Virus record (IMG/VR): IMGVR_UViG_3300020436_000085
Coordinates: 1-25,652 of that record
Origin: a virus
Direction: 5' to 3' (one strand)
Length of the DNA stretch: 25,652 bases
Shown in pieces: positions 9,509 through 23,560 of the stretch. The position numbers were made by a program, and so were the translations under genes. The notes beneath the pieces were generated by a model. It worked only from the letters and a program-made list of their open reading frames with translations. It had not been told where the DNA came from and did no database searches. Positions within the stretch are counted from its first letter, which is position 1. Every line of letters begins with the position of its first letter.

Positions 9509-10552
9509 ATGGTTGAATTCTTAAATCGATATGTTTCTCTACAAAAAGAAGCCAGTTACGGTACTGAACCTACTGCGGGTACAGGTAACGGAGAAGTATT
9601 CGGGGAAGTAGATGACGAATCTATTCAACATAACTTTGAACTTATGACTCGCGAAGACATGAGCCGACCTATCAGTGCAAAGTCCGTAACCGGAACAGAA
9701 CATTCAGAAGGCGACATCAATCTTGCTATGCAAGTCGATGATTTCGTAGGCAACTTACTTTACTCTTTCTTCCCACAAGACACAACAAGTAACCCATCTG
9801 GTTCAATTTACAAACACATTCTAACAGAGCCTTCTCTTACAAGCGCATCTGCTGGTGTTTATCCTTCATTTACTATTCGTGTTGGACGCGAAGAGAAAGA
9901 ACACACTTTTACTGGTATGATGACTAACACACTAAACGTCAGTGCTTCGGTTGGAGAATACGCTACAATGAGTGTTGGCTTCGTTGGAAAGGCAGAATCG
10001 GCAACCGCCAGTCTTGCTACCCCTACATTCGATGGTGTCGCTCTCGATGCACTATACTTCGCTAACGGAGAAGTTAAGTTCGATAATGGAACTGGTAGCG
10101 CACCAGCAGCAGTAGCATCTGTTAAATCATTTTCTCTTGATATAAACCTAAATCGTGATACAGATAACGCTTACGGTATAGGTAGTAGTACATATGGACG
10201 CGCACCTCCAGCACAGCGCAGAGAAATCAGCGGAACAATCGAGTTTAACAAGGTAATTTATACAAGTTCTCTTGATGAGCCTACTTACGATGAGTTGATT
10301 GCGGCTGATGGTTTAGCGTATAACGACGGAACAGACCCTTCAATGAGCCTAAAATTATTAGATGAAGCAGGTGCAGATTTCATATTTATAGAATTCTTTA
10401 ATGTGCGTTTTGAGGCTCCCGAAGCATCAGTAAGTGGTCGTGATACTAACACAATGACCGTGAACTTTGTCGGTTTGTATGATGATAACCTTGGTGCTAT
10501 GAGAGTAACGGCACAAGGAACTTCACTTTCATCGACACAGTATGACGCTTGA
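9509..10552 (+). CDS. Tail tube protein
   Basis: The 347-aa major tail tube protein is inferred to stack as rings forming the tail lumen. The start MVEFLNRYVSLQKEASYGTE (the tube-typical GTEPTAG follows), then MTREDMSRPISAK, a central GDINLAMQVDDFVGNLLYSF, and pairs of strands such as FTGMMTNTLNVSASVGEYAT and VASVKSFSLDINLNRDTDNA, are characteristic of long siphovirus-type tail tube proteins. The last third (REISGTIEFNKVIY, MTVNFVGLYDDN) repeats the strand pattern, giving a two-lobed subunit longer than the roughly 200-aa tubes of lambda-like phages. GAGGTG lies 7 nt before the ATG. Its position between terminator and chaperones supports the call. Confidence 0.8.
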   Translation: MVEFLNRYVSLQKEASYGTEPTAGTGNGEVFGEVDDESIQHNFELMTREDMSRPISAKSVTGTEHSEGDINLAMQVDDFVGNLLYSFFPQDTTSNPSGSIYKHILTEPSLTSASAGVYPSFTIRVGREEKEHTFTGMMTNTLNVSASVGEYATMSVGFVGKAESATASLATPTFDGVALDALYFANGEVKFDNGTGSAPAAVASVKSFSLDINLNRDTDNAYGIGSSTYGRAPPAQRREISGTIEFNKVIYTSSLDEPTYDELIAADGLAYNDGTDPSMSLKLLDEAGADFIFIEFFNVRFEAPEASVSGRDTNTMTVNFVGLYDDNLGAMRVTAQGTSLSSTQYDA

Positions 10553-11068: not shown

Positions 11069-11402
11069 ACTAGAAGACGGACGCAAGATTTGGGTGCGAC
11101 AAGCATCCGGTATGCAGAAATTAAAAATCGAAACTATACAAGCGAAAATATTTCGTCAGTTTAGGCATTTCGGTGCTAACCCCGCAGAATGGACAGAAGA
11201 CCAAAACATAGAGTTTTCTGATGCTCTTGACGCGGCTGGAGGCGGAATGGAAGCACAGATAAATTCATGGGTTCCGGGTTGTATATTAGAAGAAAATTTT
11301 GATATAGACACTCTAACTACTGGAGAACTTATGGGTCTACTTTCTTTCGTGCGTGGTGATGACCCGGAGGGTGCTATCCCTTTGGTCAATTCCTCGGAGT
11401 AG
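11043..11402 (+). CDS. Tail assembly chaperone, upstream frame (gpG-like)
   Basis: The 119-aa product begins MPVLKKEIELEDGRKIWVRQ, has an EIELxDGxxxxVRxAxG-like opening and helices (MQKLKIETIQAKIFRQF, TEDQNIEFSDALDAAGGGM), and ends near LTTGELMGLLSFVRG. Its location directly before a tape measure gene, and a second open frame continuing in the -1 phase, are hallmarks of the G/GT chaperones that coat the tape measure protein during tail assembly. The 0-frame stop TAG is at 11400-11402. There is no clear Shine-Dalgarno; translation may be coupled to the overlapping mini-gene. Confidence 0.7.
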   Translation: MPVLKKEIELEDGRKIWVRQASGMQKLKIETIQAKIFRQFRHFGANPAEWTEDQNIEFSDALDAAGGGMEAQINSWVPGCILEENFDIDTLTTGELMGLLSFVRGDDPEGAIPLVNSSE

Positions 11403-11473
11403 CGACCCCATTGTGTATGGCGTTTAAGGGTGTTTTGCCCTCAGACCTTTGGGACCGATATGACTCCGAGGGA
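11378..11473 (+). promoter_or_regulatory. Programmed -1 ribosomal frameshift signal
   Basis: The heptamer C CCT TTG (11378-11384) fits X XXY YYZ in the upstream reading phase; after slipping, the codons read CCC and TTT. After a 5-nt spacer, 11390-11400 can pair with 11463-11473 (11 bp: 10 Watson-Crick pairs and one G-U). The 62-nt loop holds a smaller hairpin, AGGG (11427-11430) with CCCT (11438-11441). The 0-frame stop begins inside the 5' arm. The second frame is open from 11363 and has no Shine-Dalgarno at its internal starts, so frameshifting is the simplest way to express it. Confidence 0.75.
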
Positions 11474-11698
11474 GGGCAGAAAAAACTTGAAATTGATATG
11501 CTGGTAGCATCAGAAATCAATGACCGTATTAGCGAGGCTAGTAAGGATGCTAAAAGGGATGCTAAATCTATGGTTGATAGACGTAACAAACGACGAGAGG
11601 AACGCCAACTCTTAAACAACAACAAAGACCTGTTTACCGCATTGAGAGATGCGAATGTCCCGATTGTGGGCAGTAATGAAAGTGGGGATAAGGAATGA
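11384..11698 (+). CDS. Tail assembly chaperone, -1 frame extension (gpGT-like T part)
   Basis: Read after a -1 slip at 11384, this adds 104 residues to the first 114 of the upstream frame, for a 218-aa fusion. The extension begins GQFLGVATPLCMAFKGVLPS and continues into acidic and basic helices (EGGQKKLEIDMLVASEIND, DAKRDAKSMVDRRNKRREER). ATPLCMAFKGVLPSDLW is sensible protein sequence upstream of both possible internal starts (TTG 11411, ATG 11417), which supports entry by frameshift rather than by separate initiation. The T part of such chaperones contacts the tail tube protein. The stop overlaps the tape measure start (ATGA). Confidence 0.7.
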   Translation, partial: GQFLGVATPLCMAFKGVLPSDLWDRYDSEGGQKKLEIDMLVASEINDRISEASKDAKRDAKSMVDRRNKRREERQLLNNNKDLFTALRDANVPIVGSNESGDKE

Positions 11699-14445
11699 TT
11701 GAACTTTTAGGTATCATCCCATCTTGGTTTATAGCAGTCGTATTCGCGGCCACGCTAGTTGTAAATCGTGCTGGTGCATCTAAGATTTTCTTCGATGTGG
11801 TAGGTACTTTCCAAGCAAATCGTTTGATTATGGAGGGAGGAGCAGCCTTCACTACCTTTCAATCACTTGCTTTAGACGCTTTCTCCGGTATAGAAGAAGC
11901 GGCGATGTTAGCCAGCGAACAAATACAAGAAATGGTAGATGCTACTGTTCCTCTCTCCCGTGAAATCGCTGCTGCTAGGATTGAATTCGATAAGTTTATT
12001 GACGACGCTGAACAGGCTAGGTTGGGAAATGAAATAAAAGATATTGGTGTGCAGTTTGGTTTCACTGGCGACCAAGCACTCCGAGCCGGTGCTAAGATGG
12101 CACAGTTGTCTGGTATGCTCGGCGAAGAAGCCGTACCTGCCGCTACTGAAATGAGTCTAGCGTTTGGTATGATTGGTGAAATGGAAGCAGAACAAGCCAT
12201 GCAAAGGCTAATCAACTTACATCAGCAGACTGGTTTTATGATGCGTGGAACCACACAAGCACAATTTGATGCTATGAGTGCAGATGAGCAACGCAATCAA
12301 ATTAGAAAGGCTAGTATCGCTACTCTTAACGAACTAAACGCAGTCGAAGACCATTCGGCGGCCAACATGGAGAGAATTACTTTCGTCATGAATCAGTTTG
12401 CATCACAGGCTCATTTGACTGGCGAATCAATAGCAGAAATGGCCGCTATGTCTGCGGTATTGATTGAGGCTGGTGAAGAGCAAGGAAAGGCTGGTCGTGC
12501 GTTGCGTATGATTTACGCTCGCCTTGGTGCTGATACTAACGGTGCTGCTACCGAGTTAGAAAAATTAGGCATCGCAACTAAAAAAGCGGACGGTACTTTA
12601 AGACCACTTAATGAAATATTGATTGATTTAGATAATAGCACTATTAATTTATCAAAGGCAGAAAGACAAAGAATAGCGCAAACTGTTGCAGGTAACAATC
12701 ATTATGTTCGTATGCTCAAATTGATGGAAGGCACAGAAAGAATGCAAACCCTCATGGGTGAGGCTACCGGCAATACTGCGCCTATTGTGGATATATTGAA
12801 TGATAGATTTGCAGATATGTCTGTTCGTCTAACACAGGCGGAAACTGCACTACATAATGTTCGTGGTGAAATAGGTGATGCTCTTTTACCAGCAGTAGTA
12901 AAAGCCACCGAAAAACAAGTAGAATTTAACGAAGCGTATTTAGATTTTATACAAATGCCTGTTGTTGGTGATTTGATACAAGGGATGACGCAATTCCAAC
13001 AAATGATGAGTACCACTCTAGGTCCGCTTATGCAGATGAACCTTAACTTCAAACAGATGTCTCTAGGTCTGATGACCACTGTTGTAGTTATGAGAGCGTT
13101 AAATGGAGAAGCGGTTGCTGGATTTAACAAAGAAGAACACTTAAATAATCTAAGAAGAGAAGGAAAAATGTTACTTGAGCAAAGTAAACAGATTAAAGCG
13201 GAAGGTAATAATCTAACAAGACTCGGTTTATTTTTAGAAGAGGAAGAGGCGAGGATTAAAAGGGAAAATATTGCTTTGGCCCGTTATGCAAAGGATTTTA
13301 GTGGTCAAAAACTGGCCGCAGACAAAGCCCGCATACCTGTTGCCAAACAGCAATTACAATCACTTAGAGAAGAAATATCACTTGATGATATTAAATTAGA
13401 AAAAATAAAAGAAAAAACAATAAATCACAAAAACTTAAATATTTTAACAAAAGACGAAAGGGCTGATAAGACAGCGACTATTCTTCTTTTAGAACAAGAA
13501 ATACCTATGTTACAACAAGCAGTTAGAATTAAAACGGCAGGTAATCATGTATCTAAGCAAGAGTTTGAAACAGGTAAGAAAATAATCTTTAATCTAAAAA
13601 TGCAGAACGATGAAATAGAAAAATTCAATTTTCAACATTTAATGAAAGTATCATCTGGTTTTATGATGATGCAGATGGGTGCTATGGCGGCAACTATGGC
13701 CGTTGGGCCACTAACAGATGTTTTAAATCATTTCGGTGCAGACGTTGATGCCTCTAGGGTTCAAATGATTATGATGGCTATGGTTATGGGTTTGACAGTT
13801 GCAGAAATGGGTATTTTTACTGCGGCTAGTACAAGTGCTGGTGTAGCATCTACTGGTGCGGCTGGAGGAACAGGACTTTTCGCTTCCGCCATGCAAGCAT
13901 TATCAGCATCTACTATGACTGCAACAACAGCGTTGAAGGCTTTTGGTAAAACAACTATCGTTGGTTTAGGTCTTACTTTGGCGGCGGTTGGTATCGCGAA
14001 ACTTTTGGATATGTTCGGTCTATTTGGTGACGAAATGGATGATTTTGAATCTGATATGGAAGACTTTAACACTAGGATGCAAGAGTCGGCAAGGGCCGCA
14101 GAAGCACTTATGGACGCACAAACGGCAGAAATGCAGTCTGTAATGAATCTTAGCGGTGCTTACGGTGACGCTACTGACGAAATACAAAGGTTTGGTAGTG
14201 CTAGAGAGGAGTTATTCTTTGGATTCAAAGCAGGTAATGTTACTGGTGATTTGGTAAAACAGGTTCAACAACAGGGCGTAGAGAATTTTGTAGCACATAC
14301 AGAAGTTATTCAGACCAACAACTTCAATGGTGTTACTACTGATGATATAGCAAATCAAATTCTTGAAATCATGGCACAAGCCCTTATGGAATCTGGTATT
14401 CCACCTGCGATGGTAGTAGGAGCGGCGGCTGGCGCACGACTTTGA
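11695..14445 (+). CDS. Tape measure protein (TP901 type)
   Basis: This 916-aa protein sets tail length and sits inside the tail tube. The N-terminus has a hydrophobic segment (about 7-24, SWFIAVVFAATLVV). Residues about 30-400 match the TP901 tape measure core, including MVDATVPLSREIAAARIEFD, helices with GDQALRAGAKMAQLSGML, and the conserved region around 250-275 (MSAVLIEAGEEQGKAGRALR followed by MIYARLGAD), then LEKLGIATKKADGTLRPLNE. About 480-640 is charged coiled coil. Hydrophobic spans at about 657-680, 692-712 and 753-778 could insert in the host membrane during DNA delivery. ATGA overlap with the chaperone. If the common rule of about 1.5 angstrom per residue holds, the tail would be about 130-140 nm. 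Confidence 0.85.
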   Translation: MIELLGIIPSWFIAVVFAATLVVNRAGASKIFFDVVGTFQANRLIMEGGAAFTTFQSLALDAFSGIEEAAMLASEQIQEMVDATVPLSREIAAARIEFDKFIDDAEQARLGNEIKDIGVQFGFTGDQALRAGAKMAQLSGMLGEEAVPAATEMSLAFGMIGEMEAEQAMQRLINLHQQTGFMMRGTTQAQFDAMSADEQRNQIRKASIATLNELNAVEDHSAANMERITFVMNQFASQAHLTGESIAEMAAMSAVLIEAGEEQGKAGRALRMIYARLGADTNGAATELEKLGIATKKADGTLRPLNEILIDLDNSTINLSKAERQRIAQTVAGNNHYVRMLKLMEGTERMQTLMGEATGNTAPIVDILNDRFADMSVRLTQAETALHNVRGEIGDALLPAVVKATEKQVEFNEAYLDFIQMPVVGDLIQGMTQFQQMMSTTLGPLMQMNLNFKQMSLGLMTTVVVMRALNGEAVAGFNKEEHLNNLRREGKMLLEQSKQIKAEGNNLTRLGLFLEEEEARIKRENIALARYAKDFSGQKLAADKARIPVAKQQLQSLREEISLDDIKLEKIKEKTINHKNLNILTKDERADKTATILLLEQEIPMLQQAVRIKTAGNHVSKQEFETGKKIIFNLKMQNDEIEKFNFQHLMKVSSGFMMMQMGAMAATMAVGPLTDVLNHFGADVDASRVQMIMMAMVMGLTVAEMGIFTAASTSAGVASTGAAGGTGLFASAMQALSASTMTATTALKAFGKTTIVGLGLTLAAVGIAKLLDMFGLFGDEMDDFESDMEDFNTRMQESARAAEALMDAQTAEMQSVMNLSGAYGDATDEIQRFGSAREELFFGFKAGNVTGDLVKQVQQQGVENFVAHTEVIQTNNFNGVTTDDIANQILEIMAQALMESGIPPAMVVGAAAGARL

Positions 14446-14464: not shown

Positions 14465-17400
14465 ATGGTTAGAGCGACAACACTTGCATATCAGTTTCTT
14501 TTGGCTGGTTATTACGATGACTTTAATGGTGCGAGAGCAATCCCCAATGATAACAACAACCCAAGTCTAACTGCTACATACGACCATGCTAACACGCACT
14601 ACGGCAACCCGATGAATGGAGAGGCTACTCTCAATACACGCTATCGTTGGTCTTTCGCAGACCGAGAGCAATATGATGGGAGTACAACGCCTACTTCTGG
14701 TGGCACAAGTGTTGCTACCGCCACTAACAAATTTCTAAAAAATACTGGACCCGCAGAATGGCTTACCTATGATGTATCAAGACAAGACCCGGAACATTGG
14801 GAAGGTAGAGCGCAACTACAATATCCAGATAGTCACATAGCAAACAAATACAGATTCAACAATTCTGGTAGCGAGGGTTACTTGCTGTTTTGTAACGGCC
14901 ACGATACAGCCGGTTCATACTACATACCGACAGGAGATTATGATTCTACTTTCGGTAGAGATGAACGACAACCTTATACAGTCCAATATTATGACGCTGG
15001 TACTTCTACTGGTGAAAGTAGTGCAGGTAAATTAAATAGTGTAGGTCCGTCTAACGTAGGTTATATGCAACGCGCTCATTTGACAAGCGTTTGGATGGCA
15101 GAAAGAAACTTTGATTTTAACCATTTTACAACCCCTTCTAGTGATACCGTAGAGACACCTAGACTTCACTATATGCCACATCGTTCTCCATCTGGTATGC
15201 CTTTCTTGTGCATACAAACTTGTTTTGATGACAACGCTAGTATAGTAGTAGATAGTCAAAAAAGACCAGCGATTGCATATGATGGCCTTCTAAATAGCAG
15301 ACAAGACAACGATACATTTGGTTTACGTTTTGCTATTCAATCTTTGTCTATGGGTAATTTAGCGCAAAGTTATGTGGCTAATTCGCCAAAACTAACAATA
15401 CAGATAGGGTTTCCGTCTTCTATTACACCTACTGGAGAAAAAGGTTTTTCTGAAAACACAAATACCGCCGCTATCGAATGGGAAATAGATTTGGGTGCTA
15501 GTACCGCTGCTAACAACGGGTTGGGCGGTACATATGATTATCACAATCATATAACTACTTGGGACGGTAGCACTTACGACGCTGCTTCATTGTGGATAGA
15601 TTTAGAATTTGTTATAGATTATACCAATAACAGATTTACAGTTTACAAGGATGGTACGGCTATAAAAAATACAAGTGGTGCAGATGGCCCATTCACTATG
15701 AATAACAACGCAGATACATCGGGTTCTTTCCTACCGTCAGAGATGAAAGGATGGCAGATTATTGTAGAAGAAGGAACTAACGCTGCTAACGATAATCATT
15801 ACACTCTTATGTTAGATAGAGTTGGTTTGTATCAATCTTTGACAGAGAGAGCAGATGGAACTCAAATGCCTCCTATCGATTCTATGAATATAGTTTCTAA
15901 TGTAAATGCTATATCTACCATGCAACTAAAAATTAGTGATGACCCCGGAATGAATACGTCTACTGGCGCAGTTGGGCTTAGGGACCAAGACTATGTTCAT
16001 TTCTTTAATAAAATTTTCACTGGTGCTGTCAATGATTGGTCGCTTCTTCTTTTTCACGGTAATCTTAATCGTCCTTTGTGGTGGGGCTTTTTAGAAAATA
16101 TGTCTATAAGACAAGGCCCAAAAACTAGACAAATAAATCTTTCAGCGCGTGACCCACTATCTTTACTAGATAGACAAGTACCTCTTTGGGAGTTGGGTCA
16201 GAAAGGACTGAATACGAATGAGCAAGGAACTGCTTACTGGACTAGAGAAGCGCAAGATTTCAATAGTGCGTTTTACTTCGGTGCGTCCCCACTAAAGACA
16301 CTAAAATCTACCGTAGGCTTAGAAAGCGTAGATTCTTATGCTGTACGCACAGACCAAAGAACACAGGTGTATTCTGCTCATCCTATACAGATGTATAACA
16401 ATGAAGATACTTTTGGACCCAACGATATAGAAAATGAATATGAGGGTGTTGGGATATTAGGATTTGGTAAAAGAAATGGGGCTAGTGGTAACACGGTAGT
16501 TTACCTTAACGGCAATCCCGGCTACACCACATCAGATACAATCAATATAGTCAACACATCTGCGGCTAGTGGTAGTGGTGGTTACAATAAAGATGGTATC
16601 AGCCCTTCAACTGTGGGTACTATGTTTATGAGAGCGTTACAAAACCGAGGTACTTACGATGAAATACAATTCCTTGAATTTAGTTCTAGTGATTTACCTT
16701 ATGTAGAAGATAATTCAGAATTCATATATGCGGGTAAATATAACTGGAGTGGAAACGGTCAAGTACACACAAGCAACGCAACAGAAATGGACGTATATTG
16801 TTTTTACTTTACTACTGACCCCGGACTAAAAACAGGAGATATTTTCACAGTACCCGAAAACTCAAAGGGTACAGGTACATATGCAAATTACGGAGATATA
16901 TCTAATAAAACACACAGAGTAGTATCAGTAAGAAAGGTAGCGAATAGTTATAGTTCCCCCGGCGGAACACAAACACTTTATGCTTGGTATCTAGCAACCG
17001 CCGCTCTTACTTCTGCCGCTACTCATTTTTACATAGTCACTACTAATACACCTGCTCCAACTGAATATGGAACCTTCGGTAATAGACATCAAGCGATAGC
17101 AAATCAATCTGGAGCATTTTCAAACAGTCCTACTACCGTTACTGTAAATACAAGTGGTGGGGGCATAAGTGATTTTTACGATAGTTCTACAAGCGACCCT
17201 AGAATGAAAACTCCATTTAAGATTAGAAAAAGTGCGCCCGCTGGAAATTTAGCAGCCCAATTTTTTACTTATACTGGTAAATCATCTAATGACCTTACGG
17301 GTTGTAGTGGTGTGGTTGGCGGTGTGACTAACGAAAGATTATTCCAGACAGGTGCATTATCTGATGATTTTGTAGGTATAATGTGTAAAGAAAGAGGTCA

Positions 17401-20400
17401 AGTAGTACCCGTTACGACAAGTGTTACAGATATAAAAGAAAGAGCCATACACGCTAGATGGATGAGAGATTTACCTCAATCTTTGTGGTTTCAATATCAT
17501 TTTGGTATTATCAACAAAGCGACTCATGCTAGTGGGTTCACTTCTTTGGGTGTTTCTACCAGTTCTGGTGCTACAACAGTACAGATAAGTTCTACACTGT
17601 ATAGTGCGATTACTCAAAACGCAGGTTTAGCGGAGTTTGTAAATTCAGACGGTACGACAGATACCTTTATTTACAGAGGGAAAGCAACTGCCGGTGGTAA
17701 TTATTTCCTTATAGGGTGTTTATTTATTAGTAAAAATCACACCGGAGCAGCAAAACTTAATATTTTGACCACTAAAGATACCTACAAACACTGTTGGGTT
17801 TTATGGGCAGATATGAGAAACGATGGTCGTGCTGATGCTGATGGAGGTAAAAGAAAACAATCTTTTGGTATCATTGAGCCGGGTGTAGATAATTATGAAA
17901 TAGATTTATTTTATACAGACCAATTAGATGAGAACGGTAATCCAGATGTCTTTACTGATTTGAAATTAGGTAGTGATGTAGACTTATGGGAGGTAAACGC
18001 AAATATCGACACTAGCACTAGAGGAGCATGGTCTAAACCAGCAGATTATACAACCAACGCATCTGCGACTTTAGCAGACGCTTCCGGTGCTATAAGACTT
18101 ACTGTTAGTTCCGGTCACGGTGTTGTAGCCAACGATTACATACATATTTTTAATAGTAGTTCACACGACGGAGTTTATCAAGTTTCTGCTGTAACATCGA
18201 CAACCATTACTCTAGGAGCAAGTACCTTCGTAACATCTGACTCCGGTGGTAGTGGTGGAATACATTATTGTAAAACCACTGGTAGCGAAACAGACTTAAC
18301 ACAATACCACGATTGGGAAGATAAGGCCGGTGCTTTCTTAATAGTAGATACGTCTAAATTCTTTAACTTAAACACTACTGCTAACTTCGGTAAATCTGGT
18401 CAAGATGCTGGAGGTAGAACAGATTTGGGAGATTACGTAACTAACGGTTTAGGAGATGTTGCTCTCATAGATTCTTATTATAGGGAGGCTATATCTTCTT
18501 ACAAAAACATAAGCACTCCTTATAACAACCATACTAATCAATTTAGAATAATATGCGATTCATCTACCGAAGATAGAAACATAACTACTGGAGATATGCA
18601 CATAGAAATAGGCGGAGATAGTGTTGATTTTCCTTACGCTGGAACAGGTAGAGTTATCGGTTTTGCTGGTAATGCTGGTGGAAATCAAACACAAACTACA
18701 AACTACATACAGTGGACAGATTCATTGATGACGGCATTTAGTGGAGGAGGCACTATTGTCCATGACACTTCTGCCAAAGAATATGTTTTGACTGTTTCTG
18801 GAGCAGATTTTAGAAATTTGATACCTTACACTATTTCTGCGTTGTTCGGTGCTAATCTTTATCCATTTGCTAAAAACACTACAACAGGAGAAGTCAGTAT
18901 AGTAACGCAGATAAGTTCAACAAGCGGGGGCAGTCCTAGTGTTTCACAGTACGATAAAATACATTTTGCTGCTAACGACAACACGAAGATTGCTGACTAC
19001 CCTAACATAGCGGGTTTTTCTGCGTTTTCTGCCGGGAATACATGGGAAGTTCCTAAACAACTAATGGGTGTTTTTGGCACAAGTCTTTCTTCACAACAAA
19101 ATCTAACAACTTATTCACCATCTGAAATAGAACTTGCTATAAACGCTGAATTTGCTCAATATGATACACCTAGAATATTATTCCCTACTATGACAGTATC
19201 AGCCACACCTACTAACTCACAATACAATTCTATTCAAGTTTTGAACGCAGTTACATCTACTAACTTAGGAAGGCTTATGATGAGAGTAAAGGGGTTTGTT
19301 GAATCTCCAAACATAGGTACATATTATGAGAGTGATAAAATGAGAATGTTGTGGAATGCTGGTCTAATGAAAACGTGGCTACCACGTACCCGACTATCAA
19401 CCATTTACGACATAGCGAATGTGCCAAATACTACTCAGATGACTGTTGATGGAACAACAGATGCAAACACGCAAGATGATTTTGGGTCTGTTCTTAACAC
19501 TAGGTCAAAGACGGTTTACAGTATAGTAAAAACAGCGCAACAAAATTCTGGAGTTGGTAGGACTAACGCCCTATCTTTGAATTTTTCTTTCATGATTGGT
19601 AGAGATGGCAGAATAGAATTTAGACCATCTTACAATTTGGGTTACGCCTTTGATAGAAGTAATTTAATGATAAGCGATTTGACGACAGATATGGGTAGTA
19701 TGATTACACACGTTAGAACTTATTTCAAGGGAGGCACTGCTTTTGCAGATTTCCCAGACCCCGGAGTGTCGGACACTACAAGATGGAAAATACTTGAGCA
19801 TCCCGAAGTAATAAATCATAGTGAGGCATTTAGTTTATCCAAACAAGAACTTGAAAGGTCTAAAAAAGCGAGAATGTCAATTGTCGCCGAACCTATAAGA
19901 AGTTCAACAGAAACCGATAAAATGCTAAGTGGTGGCAGATTTGGTTATGTAGCAGATACCCATAGAGTTCTTGACCATCAAGACGGAGAATATTCATATG
20001 ATTGGGCGCATATAGCGGCAGGTTTTACCCCGTTCCCCGGTATGGTAAACGGTATGGATGGTAACTTAAAAACATCGACTAATATTCATTCAAGATATGG
20101 ACAATCTGCTCCTTATACTTCTATTACTGCATCCGGCGCAGCAGATATTGAATATGATGAGCAATATTATTTCTATGGTGCTAACAGTGTCAATTACGCT
20201 ATGCAAATTGTACACATACCACAAGATATGCCAAAACAAAGCGATACTACTAACAACGAACTTAGGGTTTTCGTTGGACTAAAGCCCGGTCAAAGCGGAA
20301 CGGACATAGACAACGCTGAATTTGTATTATTATTAGTAGATTACGAATTTTCAAACAGTGCTACCACTAACGGTTACACGTCTTCTACGGTAGCATCATT

Positions 20401-21811
20401 AGTTGCCACAAGAAGAGGAGAGACACATAAGTTTGTTAAGAATAGTGGGTTCTATCAGATGGTCGTACCTTCTTCTTATTCTTCGACACTTAATTCTGCT
20501 GGCGCACAAATAGTAGTTTCTTTCAACGCAGAATATTGTCGTGCGCTTTTAAGACATAGATGTGGCGACCCAACCGCTAGTAGTGATATATTGGAAAACG
20601 CACACGGTCTTACTGGTGTCTCAACAGGTTACATTACTGGTGGTAACGATAACAGTATTTTCCCACTAGGGGGCAGAAAATACAGTGAGTTCGGTGATTT
20701 TGCTTATGGTCGTAGTGAATGGTATGCTCCTAGACTTCATGTTGTAGATGATATTAAGTTTGTTCCGGGTGGACAAGTCACTTACACTGACAAAGGTTTA
20801 GATTTGAATGATGAAACTTTTTTTACACAAGGAGTAAGTTGGAGAGTGCGTGGACAAAACACAGAGCAAGTTACATTGAGATTGGAAAGAGATGAATCTT
20901 TTTCTGCCGCTGGTGTTTTACCTTACATCGCATCTATGGGCATAAGTCCGCGCACAGGAGAGAGTAGTAATGGTAGAGGCTGGTTGCTTCCAGATACACA
21001 AGGCCCGGCTAACCCCGGTGGCGTACCTCCCGATATAGGCCCACTACCTAGTGACCCACATAACCCTCTTCCCGGCGTACCTACCGGCGGTCTTACTCCG
21101 GGCGTTCCTTCTGGTGGCACAGGTTCTTCTATGCCTATGGAAACTAACTTCAACAACCTGACTGCTGGCTCATACGGTAACTTGAAGGGAAGAATGAATT
21201 TAGATAGTGACCAATTTAGTAATCAAGGTACTTTTGGTATTCTAGGTCAAAAGAAACCCGGTCCTACGCCGGGTGCTATGCGACCAAGCACCGGAGAAAG
21301 TATGAACATAGCACCGCATCTTGGTGCGGCTACAAAAACATCTGATGGAGTAACTTTACCCGGCATAGGAAGTAGCGATAATACAGGTAGTAGTAAAAAT
21401 GGAGTACAGGGTATCACAGAAGTACCAATCGATGTTTTGAATAACGAAATAAATGTAACTGCGGTGGTATCTTGTGGTGCTGGTTCAGAATTGGTAAGTA
21501 CAGGAGTGAACTCGCAAAAAGCCGTTCTTTCCGTTACAGTAAAATGCTTAGAGACAGATATATCTAAAACTCATTCTGTCACAGTGGCTTTAGGTACTGA
21601 TAAACAGATGGTAGAATTACTACCTGTCTGTCTGCTTGATGGTGCTTCTACATACGGCAACAATATAGAAGTAACAGTTAGCCGTGACCCCGGTTCTGGA
21701 AACGATACTGCTAGTTATAGAACAGTTAAGATACATTCAATACAAACATTGTTCAAGCGAGCGGCGTTCATGACTAAAGGTTTAGGCGACCAATTTAGTT
21801 CGTTTTCGTGA
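14465..21811 (+). CDS. Giant tail-tip/hub protein with lectin-like and beta modules
   Basis: This 2448-aa protein follows the tape measure, the usual place of distal-tail, hub and host-contact proteins. No enzymatic motif was seen. Approximate layout: N-terminal beta region (FLLAGYYDDFNGARAIPNDN); LamG-like part near 339-456 (ASLWIDLEFVIDYTNNRFTV); a segment near 537-572 with PLWWGFLENMSIRQGPKTRQ then INLSARDPLSLLDRQVP, like baseplate/tail-tip proteins; TGKSSNDLTG beta module near 917-946 and a related one near 1027-1075; another beta module near 1200-1262; a hub-like part near 1590-1810 (FMIGRDGRIEFRPSYN, HVRTYFKGGTAFADFPDPG); Pro/Gly linker near 2176-2222; C-terminal beta sandwich near 2319-2436. 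It probably merges several tail-tip functions. It overlaps the convergent nuclease gene by 17 bp. Domain boundaries are estimates. Confidence 0.7.
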   Translation: MVRATTLAYQFLLAGYYDDFNGARAIPNDNNNPSLTATYDHANTHYGNPMNGEATLNTRYRWSFADREQYDGSTTPTSGGTSVATATNKFLKNTGPAEWLTYDVSRQDPEHWEGRAQLQYPDSHIANKYRFNNSGSEGYLLFCNGHDTAGSYYIPTGDYDSTFGRDERQPYTVQYYDAGTSTGESSAGKLNSVGPSNVGYMQRAHLTSVWMAERNFDFNHFTTPSSDTVETPRLHYMPHRSPSGMPFLCIQTCFDDNASIVVDSQKRPAIAYDGLLNSRQDNDTFGLRFAIQSLSMGNLAQSYVANSPKLTIQIGFPSSITPTGEKGFSENTNTAAIEWEIDLGASTAANNGLGGTYDYHNHITTWDGSTYDAASLWIDLEFVIDYTNNRFTVYKDGTAIKNTSGADGPFTMNNNADTSGSFLPSEMKGWQIIVEEGTNAANDNHYTLMLDRVGLYQSLTERADGTQMPPIDSMNIVSNVNAISTMQLKISDDPGMNTSTGAVGLRDQDYVHFFNKIFTGAVNDWSLLLFHGNLNRPLWWGFLENMSIRQGPKTRQINLSARDPLSLLDRQVPLWELGQKGLNTNEQGTAYWTREAQDFNSAFYFGASPLKTLKSTVGLESVDSYAVRTDQRTQVYSAHPIQMYNNEDTFGPNDIENEYEGVGILGFGKRNGASGNTVVYLNGNPGYTTSDTINIVNTSAASGSGGYNKDGISPSTVGTMFMRALQNRGTYDEIQFLEFSSSDLPYVEDNSEFIYAGKYNWSGNGQVHTSNATEMDVYCFYFTTDPGLKTGDIFTVPENSKGTGTYANYGDISNKTHRVVSVRKVANSYSSPGGTQTLYAWYLATAALTSAATHFYIVTTNTPAPTEYGTFGNRHQAIANQSGAFSNSPTTVTVNTSGGGISDFYDSSTSDPRMKTPFKIRKSAPAGNLAAQFFTYTGKSSNDLTGCSGVVGGVTNERLFQTGALSDDFVGIMCKERGQVVPVTTSVTDIKERAIHARWMRDLPQSLWFQYHFGIINKATHASGFTSLGVSTSSGATTVQISSTLYSAITQNAGLAEFVNSDGTTDTFIYRGKATAGGNYFLIGCLFISKNHTGAAKLNILTTKDTYKHCWVLWADMRNDGRADADGGKRKQSFGIIEPGVDNYEIDLFYTDQLDENGNPDVFTDLKLGSDVDLWEVNANIDTSTRGAWSKPADYTTNASATLADASGAIRLTVSSGHGVVANDYIHIFNSSSHDGVYQVSAVTSTTITLGASTFVTSDSGGSGGIHYCKTTGSETDLTQYHDWEDKAGAFLIVDTSKFFNLNTTANFGKSGQDAGGRTDLGDYVTNGLGDVALIDSYYREAISSYKNISTPYNNHTNQFRIICDSSTEDRNITTGDMHIEIGGDSVDFPYAGTGRVIGFAGNAGGNQTQTTNYIQWTDSLMTAFSGGGTIVHDTSAKEYVLTVSGADFRNLIPYTISALFGANLYPFAKNTTTGEVSIVTQISSTSGGSPSVSQYDKIHFAANDNTKIADYPNIAGFSAFSAGNTWEVPKQLMGVFGTSLSSQQNLTTYSPSEIELAINAEFAQYDTPRILFPTMTVSATPTNSQYNSIQVLNAVTSTNLGRLMMRVKGFVESPNIGTYYESDKMRMLWNAGLMKTWLPRTRLSTIYDIANVPNTTQMTVDGTTDANTQDDFGSVLNTRSKTVYSIVKTAQQNSGVGRTNALSLNFSFMIGRDGRIEFRPSYNLGYAFDRSNLMISDLTTDMGSMITHVRTYFKGGTAFADFPDPGVSDTTRWKILEHPEVINHSEAFSLSKQELERSKKARMSIVAEPIRSSTETDKMLSGGRFGYVADTHRVLDHQDGEYSYDWAHIAAGFTPFPGMVNGMDGNLKTSTNIHSRYGQSAPYTSITASGAADIEYDEQYYFYGANSVNYAMQIVHIPQDMPKQSDTTNNELRVFVGLKPGQSGTDIDNAEFVLLLVDYEFSNSATTNGYTSSTVASLVATRRGETHKFVKNSGFYQMVVPSSYSSTLNSAGAQIVVSFNAEYCRALLRHRCGDPTASSDILENAHGLTGVSTGYITGGNDNSIFPLGGRKYSEFGDFAYGRSEWYAPRLHVVDDIKFVPGGQVTYTDKGLDLNDETFFTQGVSWRVRGQNTEQVTLRLERDESFSAAGVLPYIASMGISPRTGESSNGRGWLLPDTQGPANPGGVPPDIGPLPSDPHNPLPGVPTGGLTPGVPSGGTGSSMPMETNFNNLTAGSYGNLKGRMNLDSDQFSNQGTFGILGQKKPGPTPGAMRPSTGESMNIAPHLGAATKTSDGVTLPGIGSSDNTGSSKNGVQGITEVPIDVLNNEINVTAVVSCGAGSELVSTGVNSQKAVLSVTVKCLETDISKTHSVTVALGTDKQMVELLPVCLLDGASTYGNNIEVTVSRDPGSGNDTASYRTVKIHSIQTLFKRAAFMTKGLGDQFSSFS

Positions 21812-22540: not shown

Positions 22541-22551
22541 TTATTAATTAA
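22541..22551 (-). promoter_or_regulatory. Possible TATA element before the ERCC4 nuclease gene
   Basis: On the minus strand TTAATTAATAA lies 24-34 nt upstream of the nuclease ATG and overlaps the primase stop. Archaeal spacing would put the transcription start within a few bases of the ATG, giving a nearly leaderless message, which fits the lack of a Shine-Dalgarno at this start. The evidence is composition and spacing only; read-through from the operon is equally possible. Confidence 0.28.
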
Positions 22552-23560
22552 CTCTTGTTAGATTATGCGCCCAACAGTCGTGACCGTCACAAAGACCGCG
22601 AGCAGCGTACCAGCCAGCAGAAGGAGACCTATCGTAAGTCAACAAAGTTCTGATGTGTCCTCTACTTACACTAGGATTAAAGTCTCTCCAATTCAAAGTC
22701 TCAATGTAGGTCAGTATCTCATCTTCCATAGACTTCATTTTGTCAGCCGGGACACTAGATGCTGGCGCAAACCAACGTAGGTTTTCAGCCATATGTAGAA
22801 CTAAGGCTACACGAATCTCATGACTAGGATTGGTAACTTGTATTGCTCTATCTAAGCAGGGAGGTATAGGCACAGTGCTATGTGTGCCTACTTCTCCCGA
22901 AAAGGTTCCGCTAGATACCCATTGTTCTGTTTCGGGATTATCGATAGCCCATTTTGTAATAGAAAACGTAGGAGACAAATCATCTCCGCGAAACGGGTCT
23001 AGGTGAGTGTAATCATCTACTGGTCTTGTGGGTATGGTAAAATCCATAGGAGAGTCAGCGAATTCACGCGCATCTATGTTGACTGCCCATCTACCCCTAC
23101 TCACATTAAATGTGTCGGGAATCCTAGTCATCTTCTTGGCAAAACCTACGCCATCCAATGTTTTAAGGTCATGCGCTTTACTTCGCTCGTAGCGATTTAG
23201 TTTGCGGTCCCATGAGCCACCGATAACAGGCTCCCTAAACAACTGATGTACGTGAAATCCACGACCAGTAGCAACCAATCTTACGTCGCCTTCTAAGCGA
23301 TTTATCAGTGTTGCTACGTCACGCTTGACATCATTTATACCGCCGCGTTCACCCATATCGAAGTCCCACCACGCTCGGTCAATAACTACACTCTTGTAAT
23401 CTGGTTTCCAAGGGCGTTGAGGGTCACGTTCTTTGAATGAAAACAAAGATGTGTAACAATTTGCTTTACCATTTACGGTATCAACGTAAGAGGAGAATCT
23501 ATCTATCGAAGGGCAAATGCTACGCCGTAAACCAATCTCGCGAGGGAAGGAAAGTAACAT
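22544..23560 (-). CDS. Archaeo-eukaryotic primase with PriL-like Fe-S C-terminus
   Basis: This 338-aa protein is inferred to make primers for the viral DNA polymerase. The catalytic part is of the PriS/AEP type: WWDFDM gives the metal-binding D66-x-D68, ATGRGFHVH (97-105) is the nucleotide-binding SGGxGFH motif, and RIPDTFNVSRGRW (146-158) followed by D163 fits the third motif. The C-terminal part (about 230-330) has PIPPC (C235), SHEIR (246-250) and GLCDGHDC (C324, C329), the pattern of the PriL Fe-S domain. A fourth Cys is not apparent; H302 in RGHIRTL is a possible substitute. Small and large subunit functions would thus be merged in a chain much shorter than PriS plus PriL. It starts 3 bp after the 53-aa gene. 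Confidence 0.75.
   Translation of the reverse strand: MLLSFPREIGLRRSICPSIDRFSSYVDTVNGKANCYTSLFSFKERDPQRPWKPDYKSVVIDRAWWDFDMGERGGINDVKRDVATLINRLEGDVRLVATGRGFHVHQLFREPVIGGSWDRKLNRYERSKAHDLKTLDGVGFAKKMTRIPDTFNVSRGRWAVNIDAREFADSPMDFTIPTRPVDDYTHLDPFRGDDLSPTFSITKWAIDNPETEQWVSSGTFSGEVGTHSTVPIPPCLDRAIQVTNPSHEIRVALVLHMAENLRWFAPASSVPADKMKSMEDEILTYIETLNWRDFNPSVSRGHIRTLLTYDRSPSAGWYAARGLCDGHDCWAHNLTRVN

Follow-up and report, generated by a model that had tools for sequence, protein, structure and literature searches.

How two overlapping open reading frames between a tail tube gene and a tape measure gene come to be expressed is the question raised by a 25.7-kb virus record (hereafter the window, meaning the whole stretch of DNA analyzed), which we addressed entirely by computational means. 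The + strand of the window carries the structural genes, comprising the tail tube, small ORFs, the overlapping frames (here called G and T), the tape measure and a 2448-aa protein. Encoded on the - strand are, among others, an ERCC4 nuclease, a PD-(D/E)XK nuclease and the C-terminal portion of a DNA polymerase B, the last recognized by eye against the polymerase of a relative. G and T sit downstream of the tail tube gene and directly upstream of the tape measure gene (table 1). Sequence comparison strongly supports -1 programmed frameshifting of the phage lambda G/GT kind at this locus. Very probably, G and T are a tail-assembly chaperone pair in which a minority of ribosomes slip by -1 at C_CCU_UUG to produce a G-T fusion, with RNA structure acting as a modulator at most.

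Table 1. Features of the G/T locus and neighboring genes in the window
Feature	Position	Strand	Remarks
Tail tube protein (PF18906)	9509..10552	+	context
G frame, tail-assembly-chaperone-like protein, 119 aa	11043..11402	+	stop TAG 11400-11402; homologs in all loci; chaperone-like predicted fold
T frame, 104 aa, entered by the -1 shift	11384..11698	+	stop TGA 11696-11698; -1 homologs in 140/140
Predicted G-T fusion, 218 aa	11043..11698	+	junction ...EGAIPL-GQFLGVATPL...
Slippery heptamer C_CCU_UUG, in phase with G	11378..11384	+	kept in 128/140; CCU with 0 synonymous steps
5-nt spacer, heptamer to stem	11385..11389	+	direct reading
5' arm of the long-range stem of the preliminary description; possible lineage-specific stimulator	11390..11400	+	pairing not kept past nearest relatives
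3' arm of the same stem	11463..11473	+	pairing not kept past nearest relatives
Shine-Dalgarno-like GGAGGG, 6 nt upstream of heptamer	11366..11371	+	lies in the codons of a conserved peptide; role doubtful
Tape measure protein (PF10145)	11695..14445	+	start overlaps T stop

CCT (11379-11381) and TTG (11382-11384) are codons of G, so that CCCTTTG fits the X_XXY_YYZ pattern in the phase of the upstream gene, as stated in a preliminary description of the locus made from the sequence alone. The same description had the -1 frame open from 11363 to the tape measure start, in agreement with our reading that it runs up to the T stop at 11696-11698, which overlaps the tape measure ATG at 11695. The predicted length of the fusion (218 aa) and its junction (IPL-GQFLG) also match. 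The junction-peptide region of the predicted fusion lies around EGAIPLGQFLGVATPLCMAFK and its counterparts in the relatives. In the window's genes, an in-phase X_XXY_YYZ motif is found at 37 of 8036 codon positions, equivalent to a chance of ~4.5% in a 10-codon overlap for the window alone, and in-phase CCCTTTN occurs nowhere else in these genes. The argument from chance is modest when confined to the window, and we regard conservation among relatives as the decisive evidence.

The stretch that encodes the conserved peptide RGDDPEG (window 11355-11371), just upstream of the heptamer, contains two Shine-Dalgarno-like sequences, GGTGATGA and GGAGGG. An internal Shine-Dalgarno sequence was considered as a stimulator and rejected, being present in the window but without enrichment at the synonymous level across the family.

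We collected 140 distinct homologous regions from IMG/VR via six scans with G-side and T-side queries. The peptide patterns used for scanning exclude the heptamer and two of the scans used T alone, so the heptamer was not selected for. Amino acid identity of the fusion in this set extends down to 35%, with a median of 51%. T lies in the -1 frame with an open overlap in every one of the 140 regions, and the in-phase heptamer is intact in 128 (94 CCCTTTG, 20 CCCTTTA and 14 CCCTTTT); as the counted sequences are related by descent, kinship was taken into account by parsimony on a FastTree tree. The proline codon is CCU in all 138 proline-bearing sequences, requiring 0 parsimony steps over a tree length of 31, as compared with 33-47 steps for four other conserved proline columns and a median of 36.5 for 28 conserved four- or sixfold columns. 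Measured in five-codon windows, synonymous constraint reaches its maximum at the heptamer if the gene ends are set aside, and has no downstream extension. At the level of related sequences, this comparison establishes the slip site and the reading frame and shows the heptamer to be under selection; it supports the earlier proposal that a -1 frameshift joins the two putative tail-chaperone frames. Among the first 111 regions, the G stop lies 0 to 27 nt past the heptamer. In one clade (L040, L052-L060, L062-L065 and relatives), TAG directly follows the heptamer (C_CCU_UUR_UAG), so that the slip site is also the end of G.

Two frames out of register could also result from an error in sequencing or assembly, or from decay of a gene. 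No point in support of such an origin was found, and it is refuted by the relatives, as 140 distinct sequences share the -1 layout and both of their frames are under selection; its probability is negligible. A more substantial alternative is that T is translated separately, starting at ATG 11420 or TTG 11411 either through internal initiation or through termination-coupled reinitiation after G, given that TTG or ATG codons are found 9-18 nt past the G stop and that the ATG (in LCMAFKG) occurs in the window as well as in 91/140 relatives. However, ATG is missing from the first 13 T codons in 49/140 regions, and no ATG, GTG or TTG occurs in the first 20 T codons of 22/140. Direct reading, in agreement with the preliminary description, found neither TTG 11411 nor ATG 11420 to be immediately preceded by a Shine-Dalgarno-like sequence. 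In addition, the -1 frame between the heptamer and the first ATG is already protein-selected (11.2, 6.1 and 29.0 steps at the three codon positions), and an independent start would leave a heptamer with zero synonymous change unexplained. Relatives having the two frames with no heptamer had been named as potential evidence against a frameshift; the 12 regions that depart from the strict heptamer carry U_UUU, not a separate start. Independent initiation of T is accordingly rated as very unlikely.

Slippage of RNA polymerase on CCCTTTG, changing the frame in the mRNA, would result in a fusion of both frames as well. Known transcriptional slippage needs long homopolymers, and the runs at this site comprise only three or four identical bases, which is too short. 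The conservation is moreover phase-specific, following X_XXY_YYZ, with all exceptions among sequences that have UUU in the A site. This is a codon-level pattern and therefore points to the ribosome, leaving polymerase slippage as an extremely improbable source of the fusion.

How the ribosome would slip can be addressed through the exceptions to the heptamer. All 12 regions in which X is not C have UUU in the A site, and all belong to one monophyletic clade of 26 (hereafter the UUU clade). X changed 11 times within this clade (tree length 3.8) versus 0 times in sequences with UUG or UUA (tree length 27.2). Because the clade has a single origin, this contrast reflects a single switch to UUU, after which X changed many times. 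In Escherichia coli, the tetramer U_UU.U shifts alone and U_UU.A and U_UU.G barely do, and the heptamers C_CC.U_UU.A/G/U shift at >0.10% without stimulators (PMC4066793). A UUU codon preceded by U lets tRNA-Phe re-pair perfectly after a -1 shift, independently of the P site; with UUG or UUA in the A site, -1 re-pairing is imperfect, and here the P-site CCC is always kept.

The UUU clade raises the alternative that one tRNA alone (tRNA-Leu, or tRNA-Phe in the UUU clade) drives the shift, as opposed to the P-site and A-site tRNAs acting together. X is free in this clade (12/26 not C) and XXY is CAT, replacing the proline codon, in two of its members; therefore P-site re-pairing cannot be needed there. 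Against this stands the class to which the window belongs, as all 114 sequences with UUG or UUA in the A site have X = C and thereby keep the P-site CCC, which favors tandem slippage in that class. A shift driven by a single tRNA is on balance unlikely. The sequence patterns of the family suggest, with about equal weight for and against, that ribosomes of the archaeal host obey the E. coli heptamer-versus-tetramer rule and that these viruses move between tandem and single-tRNA slippage while keeping the fusion, without a conserved stimulatory structure. The relatives in the UUU clade retain U_UUU with a relaxed P-site codon, which accords with the E. coli tetramer rule (PMC4066793) and likens them to the bacterial insertion sequences that shift at U_UU.U/C tetramers; they differ from these in that the site lies in a viral tail gene with a presumed archaeal host.

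The preliminary description had combined the heptamer with a long-range stem (11390-11400 pairing with 11463-11473) into one complete signal. The elements of the stem are as had been read, with a 5-nt spacer, 10 Watson-Crick pairs plus one U-G, and an upstream stop that starts within the stem, the TAG beginning on the last base of the 5' arm. In favor of an essential stimulatory role, the stem is stable both in the window and in the three distinct relatives closest to it (z of -2.1 to -2.6 over 95 nt when compared with synonymous shuffles). It is, however, intact only in these four sequences and is not kept in other relatives. As a conserved family element the stem was rejected: its pairing at the family level is no better than with shuffled partners, and compensatory changes are not in excess. 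One such change is present in the stem of L013 and L016, together with a G-G mismatch. Alignment of the relatives thus upheld the heptamer (128/140) but gave no convincing case for stem pairing maintained by compensatory changes, and the two do not form a single conserved signal.

Folding of nested structures gave a similarly divided result. Downstream of the heptamer, the window folds more stably than 98% of dinucleotide shuffles (z -2.7) and 99% of synonymous-codon shuffles (z -2.6). This holds only for a span of about 90 nt, as the initial 40-60 nt are no more stable than their shuffled versions. The two arms of the stem are separated by 63 nt, and in the window's clade the first 45-60 nt have no folding excess. 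That the stem is an essential stimulator consequently appears rather doubtful, and a stable stem in a single genome is on its own no evidence of a stimulator.

Across 65 representatives, the folding excess just downstream of the slip site is slight (mean z -0.6 to -1.0 in 90-nt windows versus 0 to -0.9 elsewhere). A downstream-specific folding signal with a mean z of -1.49 at +6 in 27 sequences dropped to -0.96 with 65 (codon-preserving shuffles) and was discarded, as was a shared alternative stem (columns 17-26 with 57-68, alignment A4) with 67% of cells paired versus 64.5% when shuffled and no excess of double changes. RNAalifold consensus folds, by clade and overall, were not clearly above column shuffles, the best being that of one clade (4 of 100 shuffles), and no structure was predicted in some members (L093, L098, L100, L109 and L110). 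Among the nested structures examined, none was conserved downstream in the relatives with compensatory changes. Potential local hairpins are found in individual lineages: GTTCC/GGRAC begins 5 nt past the slip site in the UUU clade (e.g., L161-L165, L170-L174, L178-L182, L209 and L215), and a potential GCCCCC/GGGGG hairpin occurs in the clade whose stop directly follows the heptamer. Codon +16 of the UUU clade is restricted to GGA or GGG (26/26), with GGC and GGT also used in other clades. Structure may modulate the shift in some lineages but, judging from these comparisons, is not the shared core of the signal.

Under the frameshifting model, we predict that most ribosomes would stop at TAG 11400 and release the 119-aa G protein. 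In a minority, the P-site tRNA-Pro (on CCU) and the A-site tRNA-Leu (on UUG) would slip back one base onto CCC UUU, and these ribosomes would stay in the -1 frame to produce the 218-aa G-T protein ending at the tape measure start. The product ratio is probably kept low and constant by the weakly slipping motif C_CCU_UUR itself; local RNA structure downstream, which differs between lineages, would be no more than a modulator. If the proteins act as in phage lambda, from which the division of labor between G and G-T is taken (PMC5009743), G would coat the tape measure and the rarer G-T would recruit tail tube subunits.

G and T have no match to any Pfam or NCBIfam family or to any PHROG, no named phage relatives of G were found, and profile comparison detected no sequence similarity of G or T to the chaperones of HVTV-1. 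An AlphaFold model of G (pLDDT 90) comprises a beta hairpin plus helices. Its best PDB match is the HK97 tail-assembly chaperone 2ob9, a weak match (E 0.03, TM 0.43), and its viral structure matches include several annotated tail assembly chaperones. The model of T, predicted with lower confidence, is mostly one long helix. Because of the predicted fold of G and the position of the genes, G and T are likely tail-assembly chaperones.

A DNA polymerase B is encoded by 18/18 large relatives, and that of one relative, compared with named viruses, is nearest to those of haloarchaeal tailed viruses (about 23% identity over nearly its full length), supporting the earlier suggestion of a probable archaeal virus. 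A GroEL-like (group I) chaperonin gene is present in 8/18 large relatives (e.g., L222:1441-3030). GroEL has been described in magroviruses of the Aoguangviridae, which have their replication and morphogenesis genes in two oppositely directed clusters (PMC10768690), a layout also seen in the window. The genes considered as being of archaeal-virus type also include the ERCC4 nuclease of the window. Searches for PCNA and for the small subunit of primase gave no match, and MCM was only marginal, in two of the 18 large relatives. No proviruses were found in GTDB host genomes, and GroEL gave no match when used as a host tracer. The host is likely a marine archaeon; Poseidoniales would be a guess.

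The locus resembles phage lambda G/GT at the level of mechanism, as a predicted -1 frameshift in putative tail-assembly chaperone genes of a type well known from phages, and differs in its slip site, C_CCU_UUG, and in a host that is probably an archaeon. The preliminary description saw interest in an archaeal-virus case, but the kind is already known: G/GT frameshifts have been proposed for HVTV-1, HCTV-1, HCTV-2, HCTV-5 and Hardycor1 at G_GGA_AAN or A_AAA_AAC sites (PMC5009743, PMC7911831). The HVTV-1 record annotates a frameshift-joined chaperone with the same layout and the site G_GGA_AAG. These haloarchaeal systems share with the present one the archaeal tailed virus setting, gene position, X_XXY_YYZ motif and -1 direction. 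In contrast, the site here is C_CCU_UU[G/A/U], and the proteins have no sequence similarity found to those of HVTV-1. A -1 shift at the heptamer A_AAA_AAT has been demonstrated experimentally with archaeal ribosomes for fucA1 of Saccharolobus solfataricus (PMC8211752), a cellular gene with another motif and no viral chaperone pair. Archaeal programmed frameshifting rests on one experimentally studied cellular gene and a few reports from haloarchaeal viruses (reviewed in PMC8211752).

A literature search, with most subscription papers outside its reach, found no report of such frameshifting in marine archaeal viruses, magroviruses included. Novel aspects of the present case are the lineage, the slip site C_CCU_UUN, which is absent from the archaeal-virus motifs listed in PMC5009743, the weight of the comparative evidence, and the contrast within the family between members with the heptamer and those with U_UUU. 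A large and diverse oceanic family of probable archaeal viruses provides comparative evidence for frameshifting at single-codon resolution, and the contrast between UUG/UUA and UUU opens the slippage rules of archaeal ribosomes to direct testing.

Two further genes of the window deserve mention. A 2448-aa ORF (14465-21811) immediately after the tape measure has no match in Pfam or named phage records and is perhaps a tail fiber or baseplate protein. A 338-aa protein (22544-23560, - strand) adjoining the nucleases has no match in Pfam, PHROGs, NCBIfam or PDB, and looks primase-like by eye.
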